Origin: a virus
Length of the DNA stretch: 23,268 nucleotides
Strand: one strand, 5' to 3'
Virus record (IMG/VR): IMGVR_UViG_3300024294_000063
Location: 1-23,268 of that record
Both the position numbers and the translations under genes were made by a program. Below the pieces are notes generated by a model. It saw only the letters and a program-made list of their open reading frames with translations. It did no database searches and was not told the origin of the DNA. Shown in pieces: positions 2,972-23,133 of this stretch. Numbering within the stretch: the stretch's first letter is position 1; each line of letters begins with the position of its first letter.

Positions 2972-3370
2972 TTAATTTTTAGTAGCATCAGTTACTTCTG
3001 GTAACTTAAATGCGTTTTGGTTTGCTTCTACTTTTTCCATGTCAAAGTTAATGCTCTCTCCACACCCACAACTGCTTGCGGCTGATGGATTAACAACTTC
3101 TAACATTGTTCCCATTAGATCTTGTTTCAACTCTAATGTTGTTCCTACTAGGAACATAATACTTGAACTGTCAACTGCCATCTTTTGTCCGTTATCCATA
3201 AGTATAACATGATCTGCTTTATTGTCAAGTTCATTTTCTTCTTTTAATTTCCATTCGTAACTAAAACCTGCACAGCCGCCGCCACGCAATCCTAGTACAG
3301 GAATTTTGTTATCGTTTGATTCACTAATTCCTTTTAAATGATTTGCTGCTTTTTCGGTTACTTTAATCAT
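2972..3370 (-). CDS. A-type iron-sulfur carrier (IscA/SufA/ErpA/HesB family)
   Basis: This 132-residue protein carries the full A-type carrier pattern: 'LRGGGCAGFSYEW' with Cys33 and 'NPSAASSCGCGESINF' with Cys101 and Cys103, giving the three conserved cysteines that bind a [2Fe-2S] or [4Fe-4S] cluster. The family passes clusters from the IscU or SufBCD scaffold to apo-proteins. The C-terminus has ~20 residues beyond the usual ~107-residue length. The start overlaps the stop of the upstream membrane protein as TAATG. Further upstream in the same operon lie Nfu-like, ferredoxin and SufT-like genes, so this appears to be one part of a phage Fe-S module. All key residues are present, so it is likely active. 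The subfamily (IscA, SufA or ErpA) cannot be settled by eye. Confidence 0.9.
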   Translation of the reverse strand: MIKVTEKAANHLKGISESNDNKIPVLGLRGGGCAGFSYEWKLKEENELDNKADHVILMDNGQKMAVDSSSIMFLVGTTLELKQDLMGTMLEVVNPSAASSCGCGESINFDMEKVEANQNAFKLPEVTDATKN

Positions 3371-3567
3371 TACTTGCTTCCTATATAACCTGCTATGATT
3401 CCTATCAATCCAGTTAGTGCCATTTTCATTAGTGTAATAACACTTTCATCTACTGGTCTGTTTTCTTGTAATGCTACATAGTAGTCACCTACAATAATAA
3501 CACCTAGTAGTGAAAGTACACCTACTACTAACGCCACTATAATTAAGTCTTTTAAATTTTTAATCAT
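3370..3567 (-). CDS. Small membrane protein with two transmembrane helices
   Basis: This 65-residue protein has two hydrophobic helices, about residues 8-29 ('LIIVALVVGVLSLLGVIIVG') and 45-62 ('LMKMALTGLIGIIAGYIG'), separated by a short polar loop with Glu/Arg/Asp. The N-terminus is basic and the last residues are 'GSK'. The start overlaps the apt stop by eight bases. The size and topology would allow a holin-like or virion membrane role, but there is no direct evidence, and its neighbours are metabolic genes, not lysis genes. Confidence 0.7.
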   Translation of the reverse strand: MIKNLKDLIIVALVVGVLSLLGVIIVGDYYVALQENRPVDESVITLMKMALTGLIGIIAGYIGSK

Positions 3568-4078
3568 TGTTTATCTCCACTGAAGACAAGAGCTCTAGCT
3601 CTCCATCGTTCAAGTATTTTAGGTTTACTATAGTAACCCCACCTAATACTAACGCACCAGCCTGTTCACATAAACGTTTACTAGCGTTCATACTACCACC
3701 TGTTGCTACTAAGTCGTCTGCTATAAGAACTCTGCTTGTATGACCCAATATACCCTCTTGTAGCGTGAGTGTATCTGTTCCATACTCTAGTTCATAACTT
3801 TCTTCTAACAACTTACCTGGGTATTTAGCCCCTTTTTTCCGTATCATAACAAAGGGTATATTTAATTCTTGTGATAATGCCGCTCCTAACACAAAACCTC
3901 TGCTTTCGATACCAACAATATGTGTTGGCATAAACTCAATGCTTTCTTTGATTGTTTGTGCTATATCTTCCACTTCGCTTGTCCATAAGTCACTAGCAAA
4001 CAAACTGTTTATATCATAAAAGTTTACACCCTTAATAGGATAGTCTGGTACTGTTCTTATATAGTCTTTTATATTCAT
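3560..4078 (-). CDS. apt: Adenine phosphoribosyltransferase
   Basis: This 172-residue protein matches Apt along its length: 'IRTVPDYPIKGVNFYDI' at the N-terminus, 'IVGIESRGFVLGAALS' in the middle, 'MIRKKGAKYPG', 'YELEYGTDTLTLQ', and the PRPP-binding loop 'VLIADDLVATGGSM' (about residues 120-133). Apt makes AMP from adenine and PRPP. In a phage infection this would salvage adenine released by nucleic acid breakdown. The start ATG at 4078 overlaps the kinase stop as TAATG and has GGGAG eight bases upstream; a TTG 15 bases earlier is less likely because it coincides with that ribosome site. Functional residues look intact. Confidence 0.92.
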   Translation of the reverse strand: MNIKDYIRTVPDYPIKGVNFYDINSLFASDLWTSEVEDIAQTIKESIEFMPTHIVGIESRGFVLGAALSQELNIPFVMIRKKGAKYPGKLLEESYELEYGTDTLTLQEGILGHTSRVLIADDLVATGGSMNASKRLCEQAGALVLGGVTIVNLKYLNDGELELLSSVEINND

Positions 4079-4704
4079 TATTTGTTCTCCCAAATATCTT
4101 GTAAGTAATTACTATCGTAATCTACAAGTCTTCCTTGTGTTCCAAGTCGACGCTTAATAAGGTTTATTTCTATTGCTCTTGGTGTATTAATTCCATATCT
4201 AATCGCTCCATCGTGATCAATATTAGTCCAATTTAAATCTTCATCTATCATAATGTTTCCCTGATGATAATCATTAAATACTAAATGTCTAAGGTTTGCA
4301 TATCTACGTTTTATATTATCTCTGTAATAAACTACATAATCTTCTATATTATTAAACTGGTTTATTAGTTCTTTGGAATGGAGTCTATAGTAAGTATCAA
4401 TTTTCTGTTGTTCTAAATACAAATAATAGTTAGGCTTATATTCGTAATCAGTAATACAATTATCTATTGAATTTATTATTTTAATCGCATCTTGTATACC
4501 TTCATCAACTGATGAATAGTTTTTGTTATAGTAGTCTAAGTTTCCTTGTTCAATTATCTTTGGCCCAAGAAATATTTTAAAAAACTTGTTTTCGTTTTGA
4601 ATTATTGTTTTAGAAAAAGATACAAATCCACGATATCCAGGTTTGATATTCATGCCTTTAAAAATTTGCTGAGCTTGTTCAGTATATAAATTCTTATAAT
4701 CCAT
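4078..4704 (-). CDS. APH/choline-kinase-like small-molecule phosphotransferase
   Basis: This 208-residue protein has the catalytic signature of aminoglycoside/choline/sugar kinases. 'LVFNDYHQGNIMIDED' (about 141-156) matches the catalytic loop H-G-D-x-H-x-x-N, with Asp145 and Asn150 in place and Phe-Asn replacing the usual His-Gly. 'TNIDHDGA' (about 160-167) matches the metal-binding 'IDWE/IDFD' motif, and 'FFKIFLG' near residue 41 could hold the nucleotide-binding lysine. Family members phosphorylate sugars, amino alcohols or antibiotics; the substrate here is unknown. The ATG at 4704 overlaps the upstream stop as TAATG with GGAG six bases away. Its place beside two glycosyltransferase-like genes makes a role in modifying a glycan or sugar plausible (inference). 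Confidence 0.6.
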   Translation of the reverse strand: MDYKNLYTEQAQQIFKGMNIKPGYRGFVSFSKTIIQNENKFFKIFLGPKIIEQGNLDYYNKNYSSVDEGIQDAIKIINSIDNCITDYEYKPNYYLYLEQQKIDTYYRLHSKELINQFNNIEDYVVYYRDNIKRRYANLRHLVFNDYHQGNIMIDEDLNWTNIDHDGAIRYGINTPRAIEINLIKRRLGTQGRLVDYDSNYLQDIWENK

Positions 4705-5616: not shown

Positions 5617-6492
5617 TTATGTTTTCCATTTTTTATTTGTTGGCGTAACACCATTACTGGTGGTGTATAAACCGACAGGCAGAATAGGATAAACACTCCA
5701 ATTCATATGTTTTAGCCAGTATGCCCATAGTGTATGAGATGATGGAAATGCACCACCACTACGATATATTAATCTATTACTTTTATTATTAGCCATTTCA
5801 GTAAATATCTTTACTGGATTATGTATTATTAGTTCTCTTACTTTATTTGTATTAATAACAAAAAGAAAATCATCAATAAATGGTAACTCAGGTTCTATAT
5901 AGCTTTGATTAGTTGCTAACACATCTAATGTATGTCGCTGCATTAACACATTATCGAGCATTCCTGCAAACGATTTAAGAAGTTTTCTAAATTCTGCATG
6001 GTCTGTACTTTGAGTATCTATTAGGAGATCCCATCTTAGTCTAACTACAAATAAATATTCTGTACTAAAATCAATTTGTTGAAAGCATTTATGTGCTGAC
6101 CAAATTTGTCCAAGGTTGCCGTATATACGTTGTTTAGCAAATTCAATAAAATCTCTTTTGCCGTTTAGTGTATCAGTGTATGCATGCTCATTATACCATT
6201 CTGAACGCCAGGATATGAATTCAGAAAAATGAATATTTGCATCTTTTACTACTTTATTAGTTGTTAGTTCTTGCCAAATAGTGTCTTGATCTTCTTTTTG
6301 AAAATCAGTAAAAAGTTTTAATACTTTATTATTTGGTGTTTCTTGATCTGCCCAGGTATGTCCATATAGGTCATAATCAAACTCACTAAACAAATCAAGT
6401 ACATCAAAAAAGTCTTGCATAAACTTAGGGCTTTGGTTTAAATGTCTAGTTTGCCCGCTTACGCAAATTGCTATTTTTGGTGTATCACTCAT
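5617..6492 (-). CDS. Glycosyltransferase-like protein, upstream tandem copy
   Basis: This 291-residue protein is the paralogue of the next gene: 'PKIAICVSGQTRHLN', 'DYDLYGHTWADQE', 'FIEFAKQRIYGNLGQIWSAHKCFQQID' and 'VVRLRWD' are shared in the same order, and C-terminal features such as 'FPSSHTLWAYWL' parallel 'FPAAHNLWFNWL'. The copies differ mainly between residues ~185 and 250, which may mean different acceptor specificity. A role in decorating a glycan on the virion or the host surface is inferred from resemblance to glycosyltransferases and from the neighbouring kinase; no definite catalytic motif was recognised. The start overlaps the end of the Nfu-like gene by eight bases. Confidence 0.6.
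   Translation of the reverse strand: MSDTPKIAICVSGQTRHLNQSPKFMQDFFDVLDLFSEFDYDLYGHTWADQETPNNKVLKLFTDFQKEDQDTIWQELTTNKVVKDANIHFSEFISWRSEWYNEHAYTDTLNGKRDFIEFAKQRIYGNLGQIWSAHKCFQQIDFSTEYLFVVRLRWDLLIDTQSTDHAEFRKLLKSFAGMLDNVLMQRHTLDVLATNQSYIEPELPFIDDFLFVINTNKVRELIIHNPVKIFTEMANNKSNRLIYRSGGAFPSSHTLWAYWLKHMNWSVYPILPVGLYTTSNGVTPTNKKWKT
6329..6404. repeat. 76-bp perfect direct repeat, copy 2 (in upstream paralogue)
   Basis: This is the partner of the repeat at 5452-5527. The two lie in the same phase of two consecutive genes, so recombination between them would delete one gene body and leave a single chimeric gene in frame (877 is not a multiple of three, but each copy sits in its own gene's frame, so the fusion keeps frame). 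Confidence 0.9.
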
Positions 6493-6802
6493 CAGGTGGA
6501 AAATCCATTACTCCAGGATCGCTCATATAATATGGATCGCTGAACATTGGATCGTCTTCACTTGTTACACCTTTAATTTCTTCAATAAAATGCATTAGTG
6601 TGCTTTCAACACCCATTTTAAGTGTTTCTGTACTACTAGCACATCCACTACAACTTCCACTCATTTGTGTGTGTAGTATTCCAGTTTCTTCGCTGAAGCT
6701 TAGAATGTTTATTTGTCCACCGTGCATTGCTACATTAGGTGCAACGTATTCTTCCATAACTTCATCTACTTGTTTAAGTATTTCTTCTTTTGTTCTACTC
6801 AT
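6485..6802 (-). CDS. Nfu-type iron-sulfur carrier (NifU C-terminal domain)
   Basis: This 105-residue protein is a stand-alone NifU C-terminal domain. 'EYVAPNVAMHGGQINILSF' (about 18-36) matches the family's 'IRP.l..dGGdi.lv' start, and 'MSGSCSGCASSTETLKMGVE' (about 47-66) holds the CxxC pair Cys51/Cys54 that bridges a [4Fe-4S] cluster between two subunits. Nfu proteins deliver [4Fe-4S] clusters to late targets, including radical SAM enzymes. The acidic C-terminal tail (~20 residues) is extra. Its ATG overlaps the stop of a 50-residue membrane ORF. Together with the A-type carrier, ferredoxin and SufT-like genes it supports an Fe-S maturation role. Key residues are intact. Confidence 0.88.
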   Translation of the reverse strand: MSRTKEEILKQVDEVMEEYVAPNVAMHGGQINILSFSEETGILHTQMSGSCSGCASSTETLKMGVESTLMHFIEEIKGVTSEDDPMFSDPYYMSDPGVMDFPPDE

Positions 6803-7112: not shown

Positions 7113-7466
7113 TTATTCATCGCCTTTCCCTGGCTTATAAGATAAATGTTCTCTTTTATCTTTTACTTTTGCCCATTCTTCCGCATCAGGCGGAACATCG
7201 CTTGGCCGAGCTACCGTAATATTTGGCCACTCCTCGGACCTATCTGCATTAAACTTGTACCAGAAATCATATTCTTCTCCTTCTAATGCACTGTCTGGAA
7301 CAATAGCATCTACTGGACATTCTGGCTCGCATACACCACAGTCAATACATTCATCTGGATTAATTACTAAGAAGTTTTCACCTTCATAGAAACAATCTAC
7401 TGGACACACTTCTACGCAATCCATGTGTTTACATTTAATACATTCGTCTTTAACTAAATATGTCAC
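7113..7466 (-). CDS. fdxA: 7Fe ferredoxin ([3Fe-4S][4Fe-4S], FdxA type)
   Basis: This 117-residue protein matches alphaproteobacterial FdxA nearly residue for residue over its first 55 positions. Cys9, Cys17 and Cys50 fit the [3Fe-4S] site; Cys21, Cys40, Cys43 and Cys46 fit the [4Fe-4S] site; the extra Cys12 and Cys25 occupy the same places as the free cysteines of Azotobacter-type ferredoxin I. The C-terminal half ('[19 protein letters not shown]') is also typical. It is a small soluble electron carrier. The start codon is GTG (7466) with AGGAG six bases upstream. The close match to bacterial FdxA suggests acquisition from a host related to Alphaproteobacteria. It could supply electrons to the radical SAM enzyme or to host or phage reductases (inference). 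Confidence 0.92.
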
Positions 7467-7771: not shown

Positions 7772-9121
7772 TTAGTAAGACATTTTTTCTTCAACTGCAA
7801 ACCACTGAAAACTATCAGTACTGTCTACAAAATTGAATAATGTTTTTACTCCAAATCCAACTGCACCCTTTGGTGTTATTGCGTTTCCACTTTTAGACCA
7901 GCACATACCTGCAATATCTAAATGTGCCCATGCTGTTTTCTTGTTTACAAATTTGTATAAGAACTCTGCAGCAGTAGTTGAGCCACCATATGGACCGCCA
8001 ATGTTTTGAAAGTCTGCAATTTCACTGTCAATCATTTTAGCCCAGTTCTTACCCATTGGCATACGATAAAAACCTTCACCGCCTAACTCGCCATTTTCAA
8101 TAATTGCTTTTTCTAATCCATCACTGTTAGTAAACAGTCCTGCCATTTCGTTACCTAGTGTTGCAACGATGGCTCCTGTTAGTGTAGCAAGATCAATAAT
8201 AGCACCTGGGTTGTATTCGCTTTGCACATATGTTAAAATGTCACCTAGCACAAGTCTACCTTCTGCATCAGTGTTTAAGTTTTCAACATATTGTCCACTT
8301 AATGATCTAACAACATCACCTGGCTTGATTGCTTTACCGTCTGGCATGTTCTCTACTAGTCCTACAATACCAATAACGTTTTTCTTTAGTTTTTTATCAG
8401 CAATAGCATGCATGGCTCCTACAACTGATGCACTACCACCCATGTCGTATTTCATATCGCCCATGTTACGTCCTGGCTTTAAACTAATACCGCCTGTGTC
8501 AAATGTAACACCTTTGCCTACTAGTGCAATTGGTTGTTCGCCTTCTGGTCCATGCAAGTGTTCCATTATAACCACCGCACTGTTATTCTCACTGCCTTGA
8601 CCTACGCTTAACAACATGTCCATACCAATGCGTTCTAGTTCACGCTGATAAATTACACGCACTTTAACACCAAGCGGTGTAAGTGTTTCATTAATACGGT
8701 CTGCATATTTCTCAGGATATAATGCGTTACCCGGCTCTGTAATTAAATCACGTGCAAAATTAATGCTTGTACTAATACCTGCTGGTTCTATTTGTAGTTT
8801 GTTTTCTTTTGGTTTTGTTTTATATTTGTTAAATTCATATGCCGCCAGTGCTGCACCTTCTTTAACATCATTTAATCTAGTAACATCAAATACAATTTCA
8901 TCTACAGTTGATTTGTATTTCTTTACCATATTTCCGCCCAACTCACGTGCTTCTTGTGAATTTTTTGGTGCGTCTTTGATTACTGTAATATAATCATATT
9001 CGTCATGTGCAAACGATAAAGTAATAGACTTTTCAGTCATGTCCTTAGTTGCTTTTTTAATATTGTTGCCTAGTTTGTTTGCCTGCTTACTGCCTGCAAG
9101 TACTATAAGTGCCTTAGCCAT
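7772..9121 (-). CDS. pepA: Leucyl aminopeptidase (M17 family)
   Basis: This 449-residue protein is a complete M17 metallo-aminopeptidase. The C-terminal catalytic domain carries 'LVGKGVTFDTGGISLKP' (about 201-217), 'MKYDMGGSASVVGAM' and the signature 'NTDAEGRLVLGD' (about 283-294), which hold the two-metal ligands and catalytic Lys/Arg. The N-terminal domain is shorter than in E. coli PepA (503 residues). The enzyme removes N-terminal residues from peptides; some PepA proteins also bind DNA in site-specific recombination and transcription control. In phage it could recycle peptides made by ClpP-type proteolysis (inference). It is the first gene behind a perfect sigma70-type promoter, with AAGGAG just before the ATG. 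Confidence 0.93.
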   Translation of the reverse strand: MAKALIVLAGSKQANKLGNNIKKATKDMTEKSITLSFAHDEYDYITVIKDAPKNSQEARELGGNMVKKYKSTVDEIVFDVTRLNDVKEGAALAAYEFNKYKTKPKENKLQIEPAGISTSINFARDLITEPGNALYPEKYADRINETLTPLGVKVRVIYQRELERIGMDMLLSVGQGSENNSAVVIMEHLHGPEGEQPIALVGKGVTFDTGGISLKPGRNMGDMKYDMGGSASVVGAMHAIADKKLKKNVIGIVGLVENMPDGKAIKPGDVVRSLSGQYVENLNTDAEGRLVLGDILTYVQSEYNPGAIIDLATLTGAIVATLGNEMAGLFTNSDGLEKAIIENGELGGEGFYRMPMGKNWAKMIDSEIADFQNIGGPYGGSTTAAEFLYKFVNKKTAWAHLDIAGMCWSKSGNAITPKGAVGFGVKTLFNFVDSTDSFQWFAVEEKMSY

Positions 9122-13620: not shown

Positions 13621-13842
13621 TTAGTCACGATCAAATAACTTCCACAACACTGCTGCAGCGATTAGACCAGTAAGACCAGCTGCACCTAGTTGACCAACTA
13701 TTCCGATTACAGTACCGATTACATCGCCACCTAAGAAAGGAACAGAACCACCGAATACGATTTGTAGAACGATAGCAAGGCCAATTAGCATTACGCCAAT
13801 ATCCATAGCGCCTGAAACGGCACCTTTGATTTTATCTAACAT
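13621..13842 (-). CDS. Small, very hydrophobic membrane protein (73 aa)
   Basis: This 73-residue protein has two long hydrophobic segments, about 15-32 ('IGVMLIGLAIVLQIVFGG') and 41-68 ('VIGTVIGIVGQLGAAGLTGLIAAAVLWKL'), rich in Gly, Ile, Leu and Val, with a basic N-terminus and a charged end ('FDRD'). It is a separate unit: a ~150-base untranslated leader lies upstream and a strong terminator follows. Its codons are less AT-biased than those of its neighbours, which often marks a highly expressed gene. A holin or a virion membrane component is possible, but there is no motif to decide. ATAGGAG precedes the ATG. Confidence 0.75.
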   Translation of the reverse strand: MLDKIKGAVSGAMDIGVMLIGLAIVLQIVFGGSVPFLGGDVIGTVIGIVGQLGAAGLTGLIAAAVLWKLFDRD

Positions 13843-15212: not shown

Positions 15213-17906
15213 TTAAAACTCAAACAAACTGTTAAAATTACTCTTAGCCGCTGCTTTATCTAAATCCCACTTTAACACACTAAGTAAGTTTTCTAATTTT
15301 TTACTAACCACTACGTTTTCCATATGATCATCATCAAATGGCAAGTCTAAAAACCACTGCGGAAGCCTTGTTTCATCTGTAGGATAACCTACACTTGTCA
15401 TTCCAAGTGGATTGTCTTTTAGTCTGCAAACAACAGTTTTCATACCATCAACAATTTCATTAGCATAGTTATCACTGTTAATCTCTCTTAACTTGTTCCA
15501 GTTAAGTGCAGCAGTAACATGCCCTGGCATTGCTGGTTTCTTAATGTCACCTGTTGTTTTGTTATTGTTGTGTGCTATTTTACGATCTCTTTCAAACTTC
15601 TTCATTTTGCCTTTATACGAAGTTAGGTTGTTAACACGCTTTGGAGAACCTTTTTCCCAACTAGGTTTTTCTCTGTATTCTTTACGGAATTCAACAATTT
15701 TATCAAGTATCTCTTGTTCTTCAGCACCCGTAAGTACTTCAAGCAATACATCTTTTAAAAAGTCTTGCATCCAAGGTGGTGTATCACTACGCTTTAGATC
15801 TAAGCCCATTGCTTTAATATAACCTGCTTTGCCGTCTACATCTTCTCGTTTACCTTCGTTGTCAACTACTAACATTGCATAACGCTTCTTTGTAATAAAC
15901 AAACCTGCACTACCTACCATTTCTCTACCAGCGGCAATAATTGTACCCAAGTCTAGTGTAGTATGAAATGTTCTACTCATAAAGCCAGGAAACGTTTTGT
16001 TTACTTCTTCGCATATTGCATCATAATAACTAATGATAGTATCAACATCCCAATTAATTTCTTTGTTTTTAATTTGATCTTTTAGCATAGGATACGAACT
16101 AAAATATGTAGAATCTGTATCACCATATACAATTGCTTTACCCTGATGATCATATTCGCCTGCAATAATCTTATTAAGCTCTGCGGCCATATGTTTAGCA
16201 ATACAACGACCAGTAAGTGTTGTACTTTGTCCTAGTCTACTGTCAAAGAATCTACTGCCAGGATTAAGTAACGCACCATACAAACTGTTCAAGTTAATCT
16301 TTTTAACCAACTGTCGTTTATCCCAAAACGCAAACTTATCTCCACCTTCTGCTCTAGCATCACGAGCCTTTGCTTGCAGTTCTTTACGCTCTGCATACCA
16401 ACGCTCTAGTAATCCAGGAATAATACCTTTTTTCTCATATGTAAAGATTGTACCATTAGCACTAATAATCCAAGGTTGTCCACTGTTAAACACAATTTCA
16501 TATATCTCTGCGCCAGTGGCTTCAAAACTAGTTCCATCCTCAAAGTCTAAGTGTAGCAATTCGTCAATGTTCTTATCCATTACAAGTTCATACTCTTGAC
16601 AAGCAAACTTTCCTTCCCATGCTTCAGCAACTGTACGAGCCTTTTGAATCATGTCTTTTGTGTAAGTGTGTCGCACTTGCCCAATAATAGTTTCAGTACT
16701 CATATTACAACTACGAATAATACTAGGATACAGTGAGTTCAAGTCAATACTTCCAACCCATTTGTGCATACCTTTTTTAGGTGTTGCAACGTAGGCACCT
16801 GCGGCTTGTGTTGAATCTCTGTCGTAACGCTTGTCAGGAACAATTAAGCCTTTAGTGTGTGCTTCGTTAATAATTGCTTGGTCTGTTTGTGCAACCGCAC
16901 CCATTGTTGTTTGTAGCAACACTGTGTTAGAATGTGCTAACACATTTGCTAAGTCAATAAACTGTAGCTTCTTGTCTAAGTTTACAAGCAAGTCAACATC
17001 TTGTCTTGAATAAGCAATAAACTTTTCAAAGTCATTGTTGTATAGTTGATCTAGTGTACCTTCGTAATCTACTTTGCGATCACCTAACTCATATTCACCA
17101 ATTGCATCTAGAGAATAACTGTGCATTTCGTGATATGTATACTTTCTATACAATTGCATATAGTCCATGTGTACACGACCATGTAAATCATATGTTTGTT
17201 GCTCTGCTCCAAAACGCTCAAACTTTCGTTCTTTGGGAAGCATGTCCCATAAACAGAACTTGCGTGTGTGACTTTTACTCATTACCCTAGATACTCTGTT
17301 TACAAGATACGGAATATCAAAGCCTTCACTGTTCCAACCTGTTAAAATATCTGCATCATCTATTAAGTCTAAAAACGCTTCAAGCATTTCTCGTTCTGTA
17401 TTAAACAGAATAGTATTCTCAAACTTATTAGTAACAGTTTCTGCTTCTTCAAATGTCATAGTTTTAGGACCAATAGCAAGACAAATTGTTGCATTCATCC
17501 AACTGTTGTGCAAACTAATTGCCGTTACAGCATTGAAAGGATCTTCGGGTGGAGCAAACCCTACTTCTTTGTTAAAGTCTGTCTCAATATCAAAGAAACA
17601 AACATTTAGTTCTGGAACTGATTGTGGATCATAATTCTCTGCGAATGTTTTAAAAATAACATTTACATCACTTTCATACAAGCCTTTGTGTCCATGTATC
17701 TTTTTCTCAGTGTTAAACTTTTTGCTTGTGTTACACACAATGCGTTCTAGCTTCTCACCAAAGATACTTGTAAATTTACCTTTAGGGTCTTTGTAATAAA
17801 ATGTGTACTTGGCAGGAATTTCTCTGAATTCTCTTTTGCCGTTGATTCGTTCTACAACTTGTACAATGTCTTTGTTTTTATCGTGGTGTGCGTCTACGTA
17901 GCTCAT
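15213..17906 (-). CDS. 43: Family B DNA polymerase, T4 gp43 type
   Basis: The 897 residues are almost the length of T4 gp43 (898). The 3'-5' exonuclease domain has 'FFDIETD' (Exo I, Asp106/Glu108), 'GWNSEGFDIPYL' (Exo II, about 190-201) and 'YSRQDVDLL' (Exo III, about 300-308). The polymerase domain has 'DLNSLYPSIIRSCNMS' (motif A, near 390-404), 'KKINLNSLYGALLN' (motif B) and 'VYGDTDSTYFS' (motif C with both catalytic aspartates). The short C-terminal 'FNSLFEF' resembles the sliding-clamp binding tail of gp43. It replicates the phage genome with high fidelity. The ATG overlaps the radical SAM stop as ATGA. All key residues are present and there is no intron, intein or split. Confidence 0.97.
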   Translation of the reverse strand: MSYVDAHHDKNKDIVQVVERINGKREFREIPAKYTFYYKDPKGKFTSIFGEKLERIVCNTSKKFNTEKKIHGHKGLYESDVNVIFKTFAENYDPQSVPELNVCFFDIETDFNKEVGFAPPEDPFNAVTAISLHNSWMNATICLAIGPKTMTFEEAETVTNKFENTILFNTEREMLEAFLDLIDDADILTGWNSEGFDIPYLVNRVSRVMSKSHTRKFCLWDMLPKERKFERFGAEQQTYDLHGRVHMDYMQLYRKYTYHEMHSYSLDAIGEYELGDRKVDYEGTLDQLYNNDFEKFIAYSRQDVDLLVNLDKKLQFIDLANVLAHSNTVLLQTTMGAVAQTDQAIINEAHTKGLIVPDKRYDRDSTQAAGAYVATPKKGMHKWVGSIDLNSLYPSIIRSCNMSTETIIGQVRHTYTKDMIQKARTVAEAWEGKFACQEYELVMDKNIDELLHLDFEDGTSFEATGAEIYEIVFNSGQPWIISANGTIFTYEKKGIIPGLLERWYAERKELQAKARDARAEGGDKFAFWDKRQLVKKINLNSLYGALLNPGSRFFDSRLGQSTTLTGRCIAKHMAAELNKIIAGEYDHQGKAIVYGDTDSTYFSSYPMLKDQIKNKEINWDVDTIISYYDAICEEVNKTFPGFMSRTFHTTLDLGTIIAAGREMVGSAGLFITKKRYAMLVVDNEGKREDVDGKAGYIKAMGLDLKRSDTPPWMQDFLKDVLLEVLTGAEEQEILDKIVEFRKEYREKPSWEKGSPKRVNNLTSYKGKMKKFERDRKIAHNNNKTTGDIKKPAMPGHVTAALNWNKLREINSDNYANEIVDGMKTVVCRLKDNPLGMTSVGYPTDETRLPQWFLDLPFDDDHMENVVVSKKLENLLSVLKWDLDKAAAKSNFNSLFEF

Positions 17907-19105
17907 TCTTTAATCCAATATTTCTCTAGTTCGGGTATATACTTAATTATACTTGTTTTTCTGTGTTTGTCAAGAATATCTATAGTTTTACAAAACAATT
18001 TCCAGTCATCTTCGTCTTGTTTTGTACGTGGTGTTCTCAAGTGATCTACTATCATATTAAGTCTTGATTCTTTGCCAAACTTTTGTTCTATTTCGTCTGC
18101 TAACTTATTTTTATATTCAATATCTGGATGTACAGATATACTTAAATATTTTGGCCCTGTTAGTGGGCTATTAAAATTAAATCCAATATCTTGCTTGGGT
18201 ACAAATGTTTCTAACCAAGTTATATAATCACTTATGTTATATACATTCATTAATTGTGGTGTATATGCAATTGACACTGTTAAGTGTTGATTATAATCTT
18301 TAATTCTATCTTGTATATCAGTTCCTTTGTACTTGCCAAACGGTATGCTTGGTCTTATATATTCGTATAAATTATTTACACCATCCATGCTTACAACCAA
18401 TGTAGAATTTAATGTTTTTATCTTTTCAAAGTATGCTTTGTCAACTAATGTAAGATTTGTTATTATTTTTAGTTTGCCTTTGTAGTTATGTTCTATTAAC
18501 TTATCAACTAGGTATTTGAATTGTGGCATATAAAAAGGTTCGCCGCCACTTACATCTATTAATTCTGTTTTAAGTATAACATCTAAGTTGTCATCTATAA
18601 AACTTATAGGTAACCCATACTCTCTATTTTTTGGATTGAAAACTACTTGGCTTACTTCTTCTTGAGTTAAATTATCTTCAATTACTTTTATATCTTTGTA
18701 CCAACCTGTACTTCTGTGTGGGCTACACATTGTACATCGTAAATTACATGCATTACTAAAATCTACTTTAAACTTTTTAATTTGTTGTTCTAGATTAGTA
18801 AAATCTACATTATTGTTTAGGTCTGATTTGTATTGAATCCAGTTATTGTAACGCATACTTGAATCTGCATACTGTTCTGATTTCTCGCATAGTTGGCACC
18901 CTGATGGCCAAATGTTATTGAGTGTTTGTTGTCTTGCTAATTTATAGTCCGGTCCATTAAATGTATCGCTAAATTTTACATCTTTTATATGTCCAACGAA
19001 CCCTTTGTGTACACAACAAAATCCTATTCTGCCTTCCTGGTCAACATGGACTTCTGTCCAAGGACTTATACAAAAGGTATTTGTAGGAGACGTTTTATTT
19101 TGCAA
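17903..19105 (-). CDS. Radical SAM enzyme with N-terminal auxiliary cysteines (twitch/SPASM-like)
   Basis: The core has 'CNLRCTMC' (CxxxCxxC at about 120-127, binding the SAM [4Fe-4S] cluster) and 'VSGGEPFYMPQF' (GGEP motif, binding the SAM amino group). Before it, 'TFCISPW' (Cys12), 'GFCC' (Cys30/31) and 'CQLC' (Cys70/73) form the N-terminal cysteine set seen in radical SAM enzymes with an extra twitch/SPASM-like cluster. Such enzymes often modify peptides; the substrate here is unknown. The start is likely TTG at 19105, because AAGGAG lies nine bases before it; a frame extended to TTG 19156 would overlap the methyltransferase by 62 bases and lacks a properly spaced ribosome site. It sits between a DNA methyltransferase and the DNA polymerase. 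Confidence 0.8.
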   Translation of the reverse strand: MQNKTSPTNTFCISPWTEVHVDQEGRIGFCCVHKGFVGHIKDVKFSDTFNGPDYKLARQQTLNNIWPSGCQLCEKSEQYADSSMRYNNWIQYKSDLNNNVDFTNLEQQIKKFKVDFSNACNLRCTMCSPHRSTGWYKDIKVIEDNLTQEEVSQVVFNPKNREYGLPISFIDDNLDVILKTELIDVSGGEPFYMPQFKYLVDKLIEHNYKGKLKIITNLTLVDKAYFEKIKTLNSTLVVSMDGVNNLYEYIRPSIPFGKYKGTDIQDRIKDYNQHLTVSIAYTPQLMNVYNISDYITWLETFVPKQDIGFNFNSPLTGPKYLSISVHPDIEYKNKLADEIEQKFGKESRLNMIVDHLRTPRTKQDEDDWKLFCKTIDILDKHRKTSIIKYIPELEKYWIKE

Positions 19106-20216
19106 AAACGTATACTCCTTCCCACTTTTGTCTGCCTTCTTTACGATCGTTACCAACTCCAGGTCGTGTACTTAGTAACATTTTTATTGTGTTGGTATGC
19201 TTGAATCCAATCTTTTCAGCAGTTTCAATCCAACGGTCTACAACTAAGATAGGTTCTTTTTGTCCATATGTTTTATAGTCTGCAATGTTTGTTGCAAATA
19301 TTCCATCACTGTTTAATCCATTGTATATGTTTTGCATTGTTGGTACTGCATAACCTTCAAACCATTGATCAAGGTTGTCAAACTCTACCATGCATTGCGT
19401 AGGTTCATCACTGTACTTTTCTAAGTTAAAATAAGGCGGGCTACTAAATGCCAAGTCAATATCTTCGCATTGATAATCTTGACTTGTGCTACAATATAAT
19501 TCATTGTCTTTTCCAGGCCCGCCTAGTAATTCATTTAAGTATTCTAAATAAGCAAATGTTTCTGTATTAGGATCTGTTCCAATATAAGTGTAGTTCATAT
19601 TACTTGCACTTACTCCTAGTAGTCTGCCACCGAATCCCATACTGTAATCATATACTCTGCCCCACATAACAGGACACAAATGTTCTACAATACTTCTGGC
19701 ATGTTGAGCTTTGAAGTTAGTAACATTTTCACCAGTAACTAATTCTAATGCAGTTCTCAATGACATTGGGTACACAAGTTTGTTACTGTCTCTGAATTCA
19801 AAACAAATACGTATTGCTCTTTTAAGTTTTTTCTCATCTAGGAATCTATCACGTAAACTATTTGAACCTCTGCCTTTTGGTTCGGCAGTCATCATATTAG
19901 GAAACAAAAATCTTCCAATAGAAGAACCTGCGTTATTACCTAGTCCTTGCACATTGTCTGTTACATGATTATAGCCTCTGCTTTTAAAGTGCTTGAGCTC
20001 ATCAATCATTCCTTGTTCTGTAAAGTATGTGATTGGAACAAGATTTACACTACGATATAAATCATAGACTTCTTGTATTGTTTGTTCTGGATTTGCGTAG
20101 TATACTTCTTTGGTATAAGTATCAAACTTATCGTACAAGTGTTCATAGCCTGTAAACTTATCTAAGTCACTTGTATTGTTGTTTATGCCCCAAATTGCAT
20201 TTATCTTATCAATCAA
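19095..20216 (-). CDS. DNA methyltransferase (SPPY-type, probable N4-cytosine or N6-adenine)
   Basis: This 373-residue protein carries the catalytic 'FSSPPYFN' (about 257-264), the SPPY form usual in N4-cytosine enzymes and seen in some adenine enzymes. 'DYSMGFGGRLLG' (about 190-201) fits the SAM-binding FxGxG motif and 'IGTDPNTET' (about 212-220) the following acidic strand. Motif I precedes motif IV. The first ~185 residues are unlike common methyltransferases and may hold target recognition. No partner nuclease gene is adjacent, so it is probably a solitary phage enzyme that protects or marks phage DNA. The start codon is TTG at 20216 with GGGG eight bases before it; no ATG or GTG lies nearby. 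Confidence 0.8.
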   Translation of the reverse strand: MIDKINAIWGINNNTSDLDKFTGYEHLYDKFDTYTKEVYYANPEQTIQEVYDLYRSVNLVPITYFTEQGMIDELKHFKSRGYNHVTDNVQGLGNNAGSSIGRFLFPNMMTAEPKGRGSNSLRDRFLDEKKLKRAIRICFEFRDSNKLVYPMSLRTALELVTGENVTNFKAQHARSIVEHLCPVMWGRVYDYSMGFGGRLLGVSASNMNYTYIGTDPNTETFAYLEYLNELLGGPGKDNELYCSTSQDYQCEDIDLAFSSPPYFNLEKYSDEPTQCMVEFDNLDQWFEGYAVPTMQNIYNGLNSDGIFATNIADYKTYGQKEPILVVDRWIETAEKIGFKHTNTIKMLLSTRPGVGNDRKEGRQKWEGVYVFAK

Positions 20217-20218
20217 AA

Positions 20219-20527
20219 CTATGCCCCAAAGTAATAGTTTAATAATCCAGTAAAGATTAATGTAACTAGCACACCATTTAGAAATACCAATGCCCTATCG
20301 TGCCATAACATACCAACCCAAAACCAACCTATAGTTCCAAATAATCCAAACCATAAATCTACTTGTGGTATTGTTCCTGTTGCTCTGGCCGTTGTTGCTA
20401 TTAGTATTAATAGTACTGAAATCCACTTGACATACCAGGATAAATCACCCTTGGGTGTTATCTTTTTAAATACCCTGGTGCTGTCAAGTTCTTTTATCTT
20501 GTCATTGAGTTTCTTGCGTTGTTCCAT
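20219..20527 (-). CDS. Small membrane protein with basic N-terminus
   Basis: This 102-residue protein has a charged, helical N-terminus (residues 1-28) followed by hydrophobic segments at about 32-49 ('VKWISVLLILIATTARA'), 57-74 ('LWFGLFGTIGWFWVGML') and 80-98 ('LVFLNGVLVTLIFTGLLNYYF'), so probably three membrane helices. No family is recognised. The ATG overlaps the dsbA-like stop as TAATG. The position between DNA-binding and DNA-modifying genes gives no clear hint of role; membrane anchoring of replication or a host-interaction role can only be guessed. Confidence 0.7.
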   Translation of the reverse strand: MEQRKKLNDKIKELDSTRVFKKITPKGDLSWYVKWISVLLILIATTARATGTIPQVDLWFGLFGTIGWFWVGMLWHDRALVFLNGVLVTLIFTGLLNYYFGA

Positions 20528-20784
20528 TAATCAGGTCGTCCAATGCTTTCAAGTATAGTTTCAAGTGTATCAAAGTCATCTCTATGCTTGTGTAGTTCGC
20601 CCTTGTATGCTACCTTAATAGCTTTGTTAATGATTGCAGGCTTAATGCCCATTTCTTCTGCGATATGCTTTACAGTATCTCGTAGTCCTTCATTAAGTGT
20701 TTCCACTTCCTGACTTACTTGGATACCTTCTTGTATCAAAGTCTTAAGTTTTGCAATATCGTCTTGGTTAAATGTAATGCTCAT
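20527..20784 (-). CDS. dsbA: DsbA-like small double-stranded DNA-binding protein
   Basis: This 85-residue protein is helical and charged, with 'IAKLKTLIQEGIQVSQEVETLNEGLRDTVKHIAEEMGIKPAIINKAIKVAYKGELHKHRDDF'. The order 'helix / ...AEEMGIKP..... KAIKVA' agrees with the DsbA family of T4-like phages, which bind double-stranded DNA and are linked to late transcription in T4. T4 DsbA has 89 residues, close to this length. It leads the replication operon behind the promoter at 20814-20842, with AGGAG seven bases before the ATG. The identification rests on overall resemblance without a sharp motif. Confidence 0.65.
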   Translation of the reverse strand: MSITFNQDDIAKLKTLIQEGIQVSQEVETLNEGLRDTVKHIAEEMGIKPAIINKAIKVAYKGELHKHRDDFDTLETILESIGRPD

Positions 20785-20813: not shown

Positions 20814-20842
20814 ATTATAGACTATAATTACACTAAAGTCAA
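20814..20842 (-). promoter_or_regulatory. Sigma70-type promoter for the dsbA-polymerase operon
   Basis: TTGACT (20842-20837), a 17-base spacer and TATAAT (20819-20814) are read on the minus strand. The -35 box has one mismatch and overlaps the last codons of the upstream gene. The expected start near 20807 gives a ~23-base leader to the ATG at 20784. It lacks the AAAAGG context and the palindrome of the 13.5 and 14.85 kb promoters. Confidence 0.75.
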
Positions 20843-21700
20843 TTGTTTTCTGATAGTTTTTTGTGTTTTGTCTACGATTTGTTGCAAGTCTATTATATCA
20901 TCTTCGGATCTAAAAGTCATAACAGAATCGTGTATTGCTATAGCAAATAGCTTTTTTGATTGATTTGTATGGAATAGTTTGTGATATGTTCCATATATGT
21001 AGCATATAGTTTTAAGTCTATTAGAAGTGTTTGTTACTCTCACATCCCATTCATTATAACTATTTGCTTGCTTGTATTCAGTTGTCCATACCTTCATATT
21101 TGCGTTAGGTTCAATTCCTAACTTAGAATATACGACAGCAGGATCATTTAACCAGTTATCCATTTCAAGTACGTAATCAGCATAAGTAGACCATTTAATA
21201 TCATTTGCAAGAAATTGATTATATAAATATTTCCAAGTATCAAATATATTAACAAATTTATTCATCTCATCACTGTATTCACGTTTTAAAAATAAGTCCA
21301 TATATGAATAACATTTATTTCCCATTATAGTAGTTACTACAGTTATTGGAAGATCAAACAGATTACTCCAGTTTATTATATCTTCCGTGTTAGTTGCATG
21401 TGTGAACAATGCAATATGTTTTCCTGTTTCTAATTGTTGCCATTCGCTACATAGTGTTTGCAGTGTTTCAAGTTTTATATTCTCATTATTTCTTACATCA
21501 TGATTATAAAAATTTGCAAATGTTTTTGGTATGTTCCACCAATCTTCTATTACTGTAGCATCTTTAAACTTTGACCCTGCTTCATCTAGCCATAAGTTTT
21601 TGTGTACAACATTATAAAATTGTGGACTTGAATTGATTATGTAAGTTAATGCACTGGCGCTGATGGCACTACGAGTACATACCAGATATATTTGATTCAT
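20828..21700 (-). CDS. Hypothetical protein with sulfotransferase-like N-terminus
   Basis: This 290-residue protein begins 'MNQIYLVCTRSAISASALTYIINSSPQF', a strand and Ser-rich loop that recall the PAPS-binding loop of sulfotransferases ('R..S..L...L...P'). The rest ('KHIALFTHATNTEDI', 'LPITVVTTIMGNKCYSYMDLFLKREY', 'TICYIYGTYHKLF') gives alternating strands and helices. 'WSTYADYVLEMDNWLNDPAVVYSKLGI' near 170-196 resembles the helix that in sulfotransferases follows 'v.yEdL...p....l..lG'. This supports a sulfotransferase fold with weak catalytic motifs. It may be a distant relative of the two plus-strand genes at 9.66-11.07 kb. Its substrate is unknown. Confidence 0.45.
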   Translation of the reverse strand: MNQIYLVCTRSAISASALTYIINSSPQFYNVVHKNLWLDEAGSKFKDATVIEDWWNIPKTFANFYNHDVRNNENIKLETLQTLCSEWQQLETGKHIALFTHATNTEDIINWSNLFDLPITVVTTIMGNKCYSYMDLFLKREYSDEMNKFVNIFDTWKYLYNQFLANDIKWSTYADYVLEMDNWLNDPAVVYSKLGIEPNANMKVWTTEYKQANSYNEWDVRVTNTSNRLKTICYIYGTYHKLFHTNQSKKLFAIAIHDSVMTFRSEDDIIDLQQIVDKTQKTIRKQLTLV

Positions 21701-22002: not shown

Positions 22003-23133
22003 TTAAAACTGAACGCCTGGCGCGAAGTCTCTAGGTTCAGCCAATGGTCCACCATTTTTATCTGTTACATAAATTCCAGGTACTTGACCGCCTGCTTTTT
22101 GAATTTGGTCAAATCCTTGTGAATAAAATACTACGTTGCTAGGTATATCCATTATTAAAATACCGTCTAATTTTTCATTTTCGTTTTTAGATTTTACTGC
22201 ATAATACTTATCGTGAATCATTTTAACAACATTATCTTGTAATGCTTGTGAGTTATTGTTTTGTATAGCAGTTGCTATGTTTCCTTTAAATTCAGGACCT
22301 AATCCATTAGTTATTGCACCAGCAAAGTCGTTTGCAAATTGTTGCAATTTTTCTGGTTCTATTTTTGATACAATACTGTTTTCTCCCTGTCCTGTAATAA
22401 AGTGTGTTGCTTTTCTCATACTAGCCTTCCCAACTAATGCTACTCTAGTTGATAATTCTGGATAATATTTTTTAATTACCTGAGACATTTTTCTTGGATC
22501 GAACTCTGCATAAATTTTTGAATCTGCAAATTTACCTGGGCTACCTGCACTCTTACCGTCTTTACTTGGTACTCGTGCTTTAACTTCAACTCTATAGTCT
22601 ATGTCACCCTTAACAATTATATCACCTACAGCTGCTTTACCGCCACTTGTTTTAAATATCCTAGGAGAAAGAATTGCAAGAGCAACTTCTCCTGTGCCTT
22701 CACCTTGAGCTTTGTAGTCTGATAGTAGCATTCTTTTAAAAACTCTATTAACAAACATTATTGATTGTTCTTCTTCGTTTGCAGGATCAATCTTTGCTTG
22801 GTTTTGTAACAATGCTTCCAATGAAGTTTTACTACCTTTGAGTAATTCACTTATATTAATAAAACCTTTTGAGTACGAATCAGCAAAGTGAATCTTTTCT
22901 GCTACTGTACCAGGAACATTCATTATATCAGCAACAATTTTGTCAACACCATAACTTTTAGCATCTGGGTCCTGTGCAAGAGCTTGGACAAGTCTTTCAT
23001 CTATTCCTGACGCTTCCATGGCATTCAATAGTTTTCTTAATAATGCTTCTTCGTCTGACGAAGTAATTTTGTTGATTAATAATTGTTTTATTTTATCAAT
23101 ATCGCCTGCTTCAAATAAATGTCTTAAACGCAT
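22003..23133 (-). CDS. PD-(D/E)XK nuclease-like protein
   Basis: This 376-residue protein opens with 'MRLRHLFEAGDIDKI' and a helical N-terminal part (1-140). The centre holds 'GTGEVALAIL' (about 146-155), 'AAVGDIIVKGDIDYRVEVKARV' with Asp171 and Glu183-Val-Lys185. A Glu in a helix, then Asp on a strand and E-x-K on the next strand, is the arrangement of PD-(D/E)XK endonucleases. The C-terminal part ('LDGILIMDIPSNVVFYSQGF') continues an alpha/beta fold. If it is active it would cut DNA; it might also be an inactive structural relative. It lies one base after a short gap from the partial gene at the right edge, with GGAACT before the ATG. Confidence 0.5.
   Translation of the reverse strand: MRLRHLFEAGDIDKIKQLLINKITSSDEEALLRKLLNAMEASGIDERLVQALAQDPDAKSYGVDKIVADIMNVPGTVAEKIHFADSYSKGFINISELLKGSKTSLEALLQNQAKIDPANEEEQSIMFVNRVFKRMLLSDYKAQGEGTGEVALAILSPRIFKTSGGKAAVGDIIVKGDIDYRVEVKARVPSKDGKSAGSPGKFADSKIYAEFDPRKMSQVIKKYYPELSTRVALVGKASMRKATHFITGQGENSIVSKIEPEKLQQFANDFAGAITNGLGPEFKGNIATAIQNNNSQALQDNVVKMIHDKYYAVKSKNENEKLDGILIMDIPSNVVFYSQGFDQIQKAGGQVPGIYVTDKNGGPLAEPRDFAPGVQF

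Follow-up and report, generated by a model that had tools for sequence, protein, structure and literature searches.

A phage radical SAM enzyme with an N-terminal Twitch domain at an optional site upstream of a family B DNA polymerase gene: family placement and a tentative sugar-modifying role

What reaction might a phage radical S-adenosylmethionine (SAM) enzyme carry out when its gene lies between a methyltransferase gene and a DNA polymerase gene? The question is raised by the IMG/VR virus record IMGVR_UViG_3300024294_000063, of which positions 1 to 23,268 were analysed (23,268 nucleotides in all, referred to below as the window). The minus strand of the window, which belongs to a marine phage of the giant type, encodes such an enzyme, and our profile searches showed that it is a new member of an already named family, NF033640 (N_Twi_rSAM, NCBIfam), whose architecture was known to NCBI. 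Because its auxiliary domain resembles that of BtrN and because relatives of the gene have glycan genes as neighbours, our best guess, to which we give a probability of about 0.4, is a BtrN-like oxidative modification of sugar-type substrates in the tailoring of virion or envelope glycans.

On the minus strand, an open frame of 417 codons occupies 17903-19156; the plus-strand translation of the same stretch contains many stops. The true start is probably the TTG at 19105 and not 19156; a ribosome-binding site (ggaAAGGAG) precedes this TTG with a 9-base spacer, the open reading frame (ORF) that begins there shares 11 bases with the end of the gene upstream, and in the 417-aa form the initial ~20 residues were modelled at low confidence. 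Residues are numbered here on the 417-aa form, in which C12, C30, C31, C70 and C73 of the original prediction become C29, C47, C48, C87 and C90. That prediction, of an intact radical SAM ORF at 17903-19105 with CxxxCxxC and GGEP motifs, was confirmed, and the strand, which it did not give, can now be added. The ratio of nonsynonymous to synonymous substitution rates (dN/dS) was 0.067-0.081 between the window gene and two relatives of 97% identity (L004 and L005), confirming that the gene is under purifying selection. It is genuine rather than a chance ORF, since the product exceeds the NF033640 and Pfam cut-offs, purifying selection acts on it, and its predicted structure has a radical SAM fold.

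The protein matched NF033640 at 252.6 bits (E 6.9e-75; curated cut-off, 170 bits) over positions 2-398 of the 398 in the profile, and the Pfam models Radical_SAM (residues 133-271) and SPASM (residues 29-90) were also matched over their cut-offs. It shares with the family the N-terminal C..P(W/F)..CC..CxxC Twitch, CxxxCxxC, GGEP and the C-terminal LDxxR..PEL region. Nothing excluded membership, and the genes found at the DNA polymerase site form a clade of their own (support 100). The three core cysteines were invariant in an alignment of phage and bacterial relatives (122/122), and the radical SAM motif, written as degenerate DNA, matched once in the window and never in 100 shuffles. The protein scored far under the equivalog cut-offs of prokaryotic viperin (34.8 bits; cut-off, 180), MoaA (26.1; cut-off, 284.05), PapB (31; cut-off, 340) and GggB (26; cut-off, 650). 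In the literature searched, we found no known role or reaction for NF033640, and for phages only general mentions; placement in a subgroup with a clear and different known role, named beforehand as an outcome that would speak against the original prediction, was thus not the case.

An AlphaFold model (predicted local distance difference test, 89.8; predicted template modelling score, 0.88) contains a radical SAM barrel of the partial TIM barrel type, so the other unfavourable outcome, a predicted structure lacking the barrel, was not seen. The fold matches in the PDB were SkfB, MoaA, viperin and anSME, as well as SuiB and CteB. Uncultured phages supplied many full-length fold matches, with TM-scores of ~0.7, to predicted radical SAM proteins; the predictions for KVP40-type phages were less close. 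A single-protein sequence search against the PDB gave no match; relatives were found by profiles alone.

Among solved structures, a profile built from the N-terminal region alone convincingly retrieved just BtrN (E 1.5e-5), and the whole-family profile matched BtrN (E 2.2e-7) solely through the same part; we found no full-length similarity between the window enzyme and BtrN. Cys29, Cys47, Cys87 and Cys90 can be read from the alignment as being in register with C169, C187, C232 and C235 of BtrN, which we take to be the ligands of its auxiliary cluster, consistent with the alignment. All four were kept in 117 of the 122 relatives. Cys48 was kept in 110 and has no counterpart in BtrN. The enzyme BtrN, an aminocyclitol dehydrogenase (2-deoxy-scyllo-inosamine dehydrogenase, butirosin), has one auxiliary cluster held by four cysteines, and its reaction has also been described (PMC9012708). 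The binding of an auxiliary Fe-S cluster by the N-terminal cysteines is thus well supported by sequence comparison, whereas Cys48 appears not to be required for it; the five-cysteine set that had been proposed for the cluster stood for C12, C30, C70 and C73 in the earlier numbering, which are in BtrN register and nearly invariant, and failed for C31. The domain order differs, as the Twitch domain follows the barrel in BtrN and precedes it in the window enzyme, which the name of NF033640 already implies.

The neighbours of the gene are those originally described, a putative DNA methyltransferase gene and a family B DNA polymerase (PolB) gene. The polymerase is of the T4 type; among cultured phages, the nearest relatives (44-48% identity) are found in large ones, for example Agrobacterium phage Atu_ph07 and Escherichia phage 121Q. 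Among related loci, in which genes were called as longest-ORF picks and not by curated annotation, every close relative (43-100% identity) whose sequence extends far enough has the radical SAM gene directly upstream of PolB. In three others (L085, L086 and L087), whose PolB is 87-88% identical, the methyltransferase gene is followed by PolB with no radical SAM gene at the site; in more distant relatives, a phrog_639 regulator is followed by PolB and the radical SAM gene is absent there, and in some relatives other genes fill the junction. The methyltransferase was rejected as an obligatory partner, since L085-L087 have it but no radical SAM gene, and L007, L010 and L011 have the radical SAM gene but no methyltransferase.

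The gene at this site is also more variable than its surroundings. Relatives differed widely in the radical SAM protein (45-58% identity) and much less in PolB (84-91%), although dN/dS in close pairs was mostly low, with one pair at 0.50 from few changes. At the related locus L012, the radical SAM protein is 48% identical to that of the window and the methyltransferase and PolB proteins are 99% identical; the flanking DNA is 92-96% identical, and similarity is lost across most of the radical SAM gene. This looks like an allele replacement, with a chimeric assembly as the less likely alternative. The genes nearest to the PolB-site clade in the tree (support 89) are other radical SAM genes of the same phages. 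One further contig (L003), which is 100% identical to the window in the genes of the shared part and appears to represent the same population, holds two more family members as a tandem pair. From these comparisons we conclude that the gene at the PolB site is optional and swappable, that it is not a replication factor, and that its PolB setting is incidental, because close relatives lack it at the junction and paralogues lie elsewhere in the genome. A modifier of PolB or of another replication protein, as had been suggested, would suit a gene found directly upstream of PolB in every close-clade locus long enough, but this explanation is already largely refuted by L085, L086 and L087 and by the distant PolB relatives without the gene, and we regard it as very improbable. 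None of the neighbours, including the small ORFs at 13.3-15.2 kb that had been put forward as candidate peptide partners, tracks the presence or absence of the gene between loci with and without it. A precursor of the type used for ribosomally synthesized and post-translationally modified peptides (RiPPs) is therefore not supported.

Members of NF033640 are multiplied within single phage genomes. We counted 25 matches in a 184-kb contig (G004), 21 in a 347-kb contig found through PolB, 16 in an 80-kb contig, 10 in a 222-kb contig, and 6-19 in each of the other large records of the family scan; in related phages, the paralogues often stand in arrays. The family is also abundant in Bdellovibrionota, in which 54 of 192 genomes exceeded the cut-off, often with several genes clustered. 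A comparable abundance has been described for the 183-kb T4-like marine virus TARA_ERS488813_N000010, with 12 radical SAM genes and an A-type Fe-S carrier (PMC5332604), and in pelagimyophages, radical SAM cassettes are a variable cargo that distinguishes host-recognition clusters rich in lipopolysaccharide-type glycosyltransferases (PMC7029224). The portions of these two papers considered here do not analyse radical SAM genes by family, domain architecture or site, and describe no PolB-adjacent gene. In related phages, a conserved tandem radical SAM pair directly follows endolysin genes (L173, 9482-12340; L178, 3212-6584). A large protein encoded beside a sister pair was considered as a tail-fibre substrate and rejected, as no such annotation was found for it.

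The genomic context of relatives was examined in the genes within three positions, with one Pfam scan per set. Among 98 neighbours of bacterial relatives, 20 were other radical SAM proteins and eight were family 2 glycosyltransferases (GT2); in a control set of 98 genes, taken from randomly chosen stretches in four of these genomes, neither kind occurred more than once (one-sided Fisher p, 4e-6 and 0.017, respectively). The neighbours of viral relatives included glycosyltransferases of families GT7 and GT8, carbamoyltransferases, aminotransferases and nucleotide-sugar enzymes, and also Asp/Arg hydroxylases, 2-oxoglutarate oxygenases, desaturases and lectin-like (Laminin_G_3) proteins. In Vibrio phage K566 (L006, 5534-12276), several radical SAM genes of the N-terminal Twitch type are interleaved with GT8 and GT4-like genes, a GT8 gene standing between radical SAM genes. 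In the cultured Vibrio phage KVP40 (L211, 4695-7017), a GT4 gene, a 97-aa ORF and the N-terminal Twitch gene KVP40.0272 form a three-gene island reversed relative to its surroundings. KVP40.0272 has a related N-terminal Twitch layout and scores 131 bits to NF033640, but it is under the family cut-off, is only ~22% identical and, unlike the window copy, lies beside a glycosyltransferase gene, KVP40.0274.

The window enzyme may thus be a two-cluster radical SAM enzyme of the oxidase type, with the auxiliary domain ahead of the barrel. The cluster of the CxxxCxxC motif would reductively cleave SAM to a 5'-deoxyadenosyl radical that abstracts hydrogen from the substrate, and the N-terminal [4Fe-4S] cluster (Cys29, Cys47, Cys87 and Cys90) would most likely accept the second electron, as proposed for BtrN. 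The cysteines and the predicted fold are seen in the alignment and the model; from them we infer the clusters and the chemistry. Its substrate would most likely be a sugar or glycan intermediate, in the form of a nucleotide sugar or a glycan residue, that goes into the tailoring of the virion or of the host envelope, and each of the many paralogues would probably have a different site or substrate. The gene itself would be an accessory gene, mobile and open to replacement, which has come to lie between PolB and the phrog_639 regulator; it is probably co-transcribed with the replication genes and functionally not tied to them. An Fe-S carrier, a NifU-domain protein and a ferredoxin, all encoded by the phage, may keep such enzymes loaded and reduced. 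More speculatively, and we consider it doubtful, some aquatic jumbo-type phages might run a private radical SAM tailoring system, in which a large paralogous set of N-terminal Twitch enzymes, supplied by phage Fe-S delivery and a ferredoxin, acts serially on surface glycans and the PolB-site enzyme is one swappable member. To our knowledge, no such virus-encoded pathway of several radical enzymes has been described.

Several observations weigh against a sugar-modifying enzyme supplied by phage Fe-S genes. There is no glycosyltransferase gene beside the window's own copy, and the substrate class is deduced from relatives that share 21-30% identity. The numbers behind the glycan enrichment are modest, and its controls were drawn from just four of the genomes that supplied the neighbours. 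In the same phages, two sister tandem pairs have endolysin genes and the gene of a large protein close by, and not glycan genes. The Fe-S supply genes are dispensable, as two contigs with 10 and 7 copies (G002 and G003) gave no match to PF01521 or PF01106. Twitch and SPASM enzymes also span many chemistries, and sequence similarity is a poor predictor of their function (PMC6231123). The main rival is a protein or peptide modifier of the SkfB, PapB or anSME type, whose target, a structural protein of the phage, a host protein or a peptide, would have its side chains oxidized or crosslinked. The barrel fold and core motifs are those of these radical SAM-SPASM maturases, RiPP maturases and anSME are among the nearest matches to the barrel in sequence and fold (PapB and GggB below cut-off; SkfB, SuiB, CteB and anSME by fold), and the Asp/Arg hydroxylases and lectin-like proteins near viral relatives might be substrates. 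However, the window enzyme has an N-terminal auxiliary domain, its equivalog scores are far under the cut-offs, and no RRE-type leader-binding domain is annotated, the N-terminal region being the Twitch domain; no precursor was found, no small ORF tracks the gene, and no structural-protein gene is a conserved neighbour at the PolB site. We therefore consider this explanation unlikely, while ranking it ahead of the other alternatives.

Chemistry on a small molecule, nucleotide or cofactor, as in MoaA, viperin or QueE, might for example yield a modified nucleotide that helps replication or stops the polymerases of the host. The barrel is indeed matched by profiles and structures of the viperin type and of MoaA, and the gene stands beside those for a putative DNA methyltransferase and PolB. 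Given the low viperin and MoaA scores, a four-cysteine Twitch unlike the auxiliary cluster of MoaA, which has an open site (PMC9012708), the optional presence of the gene beside PolB, and the many divergent paralogues per genome, which argue for many substrates, such chemistry seems improbable. Still less probable, in our view, is a role in counter-defence or host takeover, in which the enzyme would modify some factor of the host and the number of paralogues and the allele swaps would reflect an arms race. The accessory position of the gene, the replacement at L012 and its fast divergence relative to PolB would fit, but a role of this kind is unlikely in Bdellovibrionota, where the same family is abundant, and the mostly low dN/dS of close pairs also argues against it. 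Oxidative modification of sugars remains the reading that we favour. If it is true, phages use radical chemistry to diversify surface structures. The interest lies more in the multigene context than in the window's own copy: with a family so large and so multiplied in single phage genomes and in Bdellovibrionota, one identified substrate would open the whole set, and the relatives beside glycosyltransferase genes in the cultured phages KVP40 and K566 make the substrate question testable.

Table 1. Positions of the radical SAM gene, its motifs and other genes of the window
Feature	Position	Strand	Evidence or remark
Radical SAM gene, N_Twi_rSAM family (NF033640)	17903..19156	-	Likelier start TTG 19105 (400 aa)
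N-terminal Twitch (predicted auxiliary cluster) domain, Cys29, Cys47 (Cys48), Cys87, Cys90	18887..19072	-	SPASM, BtrN profile match, alignment
Radical SAM motif CNLRCTMC (Cys137, Cys141, Cys144)	18725..18748	-	DNA motif search and alignment
GGEP motif, residues 204-207	18536..18547	-	Translation and alignment of relatives
Family B DNA polymerase (PolB), directly downstream of the radical SAM gene	15213..17906	-	Family profiles; conserved neighbour, found too where the radical SAM gene is missing
Putative DNA methyltransferase, directly upstream, optional neighbour	19095..20216	-	SSPPYF motif; weak N6_N4_Mtase match below cut-off
phrog_639-type transcriptional regulator, framing the variable insertion junction with PolB	20527..20784	-	phrog match and relatives
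A-type Fe-S carrier (PF01521)	2972..3370	-	43.9 bits, cut-off 26.3
NifU-like Fe-S scaffold domain (PF01106)	6485..6802	-	71.2 bits, cut-off 27
Fer4/DUF3470 ferredoxin, candidate electron donor	7113..7466	-	DUF3470 47.1 bits (cut-off 23.2), Fer4 38.9 (cut-off 21.1)

The Fe-S genes of the window lie more than 10 kb downstream of the radical SAM gene, past a plus-strand gene pair, and thus share its genome and not its operon. Homologues of the carrier, NifU and ferredoxin genes are present in G004. As obligatory companions of the radical SAM genes they were rejected, being clade-specific only: the A-type carrier was found in 10 of 37 large records and NifU in 2 of 37. The same part of the window encodes a phosphoribosyltransferase (3560-4093) and an M17 leucyl aminopeptidase (7772-9121). 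A 168-aa ORF at 1721-2227 on the minus strand matches the N-terminal part of a DNA polymerase III alpha NTPase domain model, though the phage has its own PolB.

Upstream of the PolB junction, the minus strand encodes a conserved 290-aa neighbour (20828-21700) with no Pfam match, whose good model (pLDDT 88.5) faintly suggests the fold of a sulfotransferase or a P-loop kinase. By eye the protein resembled a sulfotransferase, but it is left unassigned, as no PDB fold match was obtained at E <= 0.001 (best E, 0.003). The 376-aa minus-strand gene at 22003-23133 is only 24% identical to its counterpart in L004 (6053-7150), with nearby DNA ~94% identical, and may be another swapped allele. Downstream of PolB, a 73-aa glycine-rich hydrophobic protein (13621-13842, minus strand) is 96-100% identical where PolB is 85-99% identical, and 75% identical in L085 and L086.

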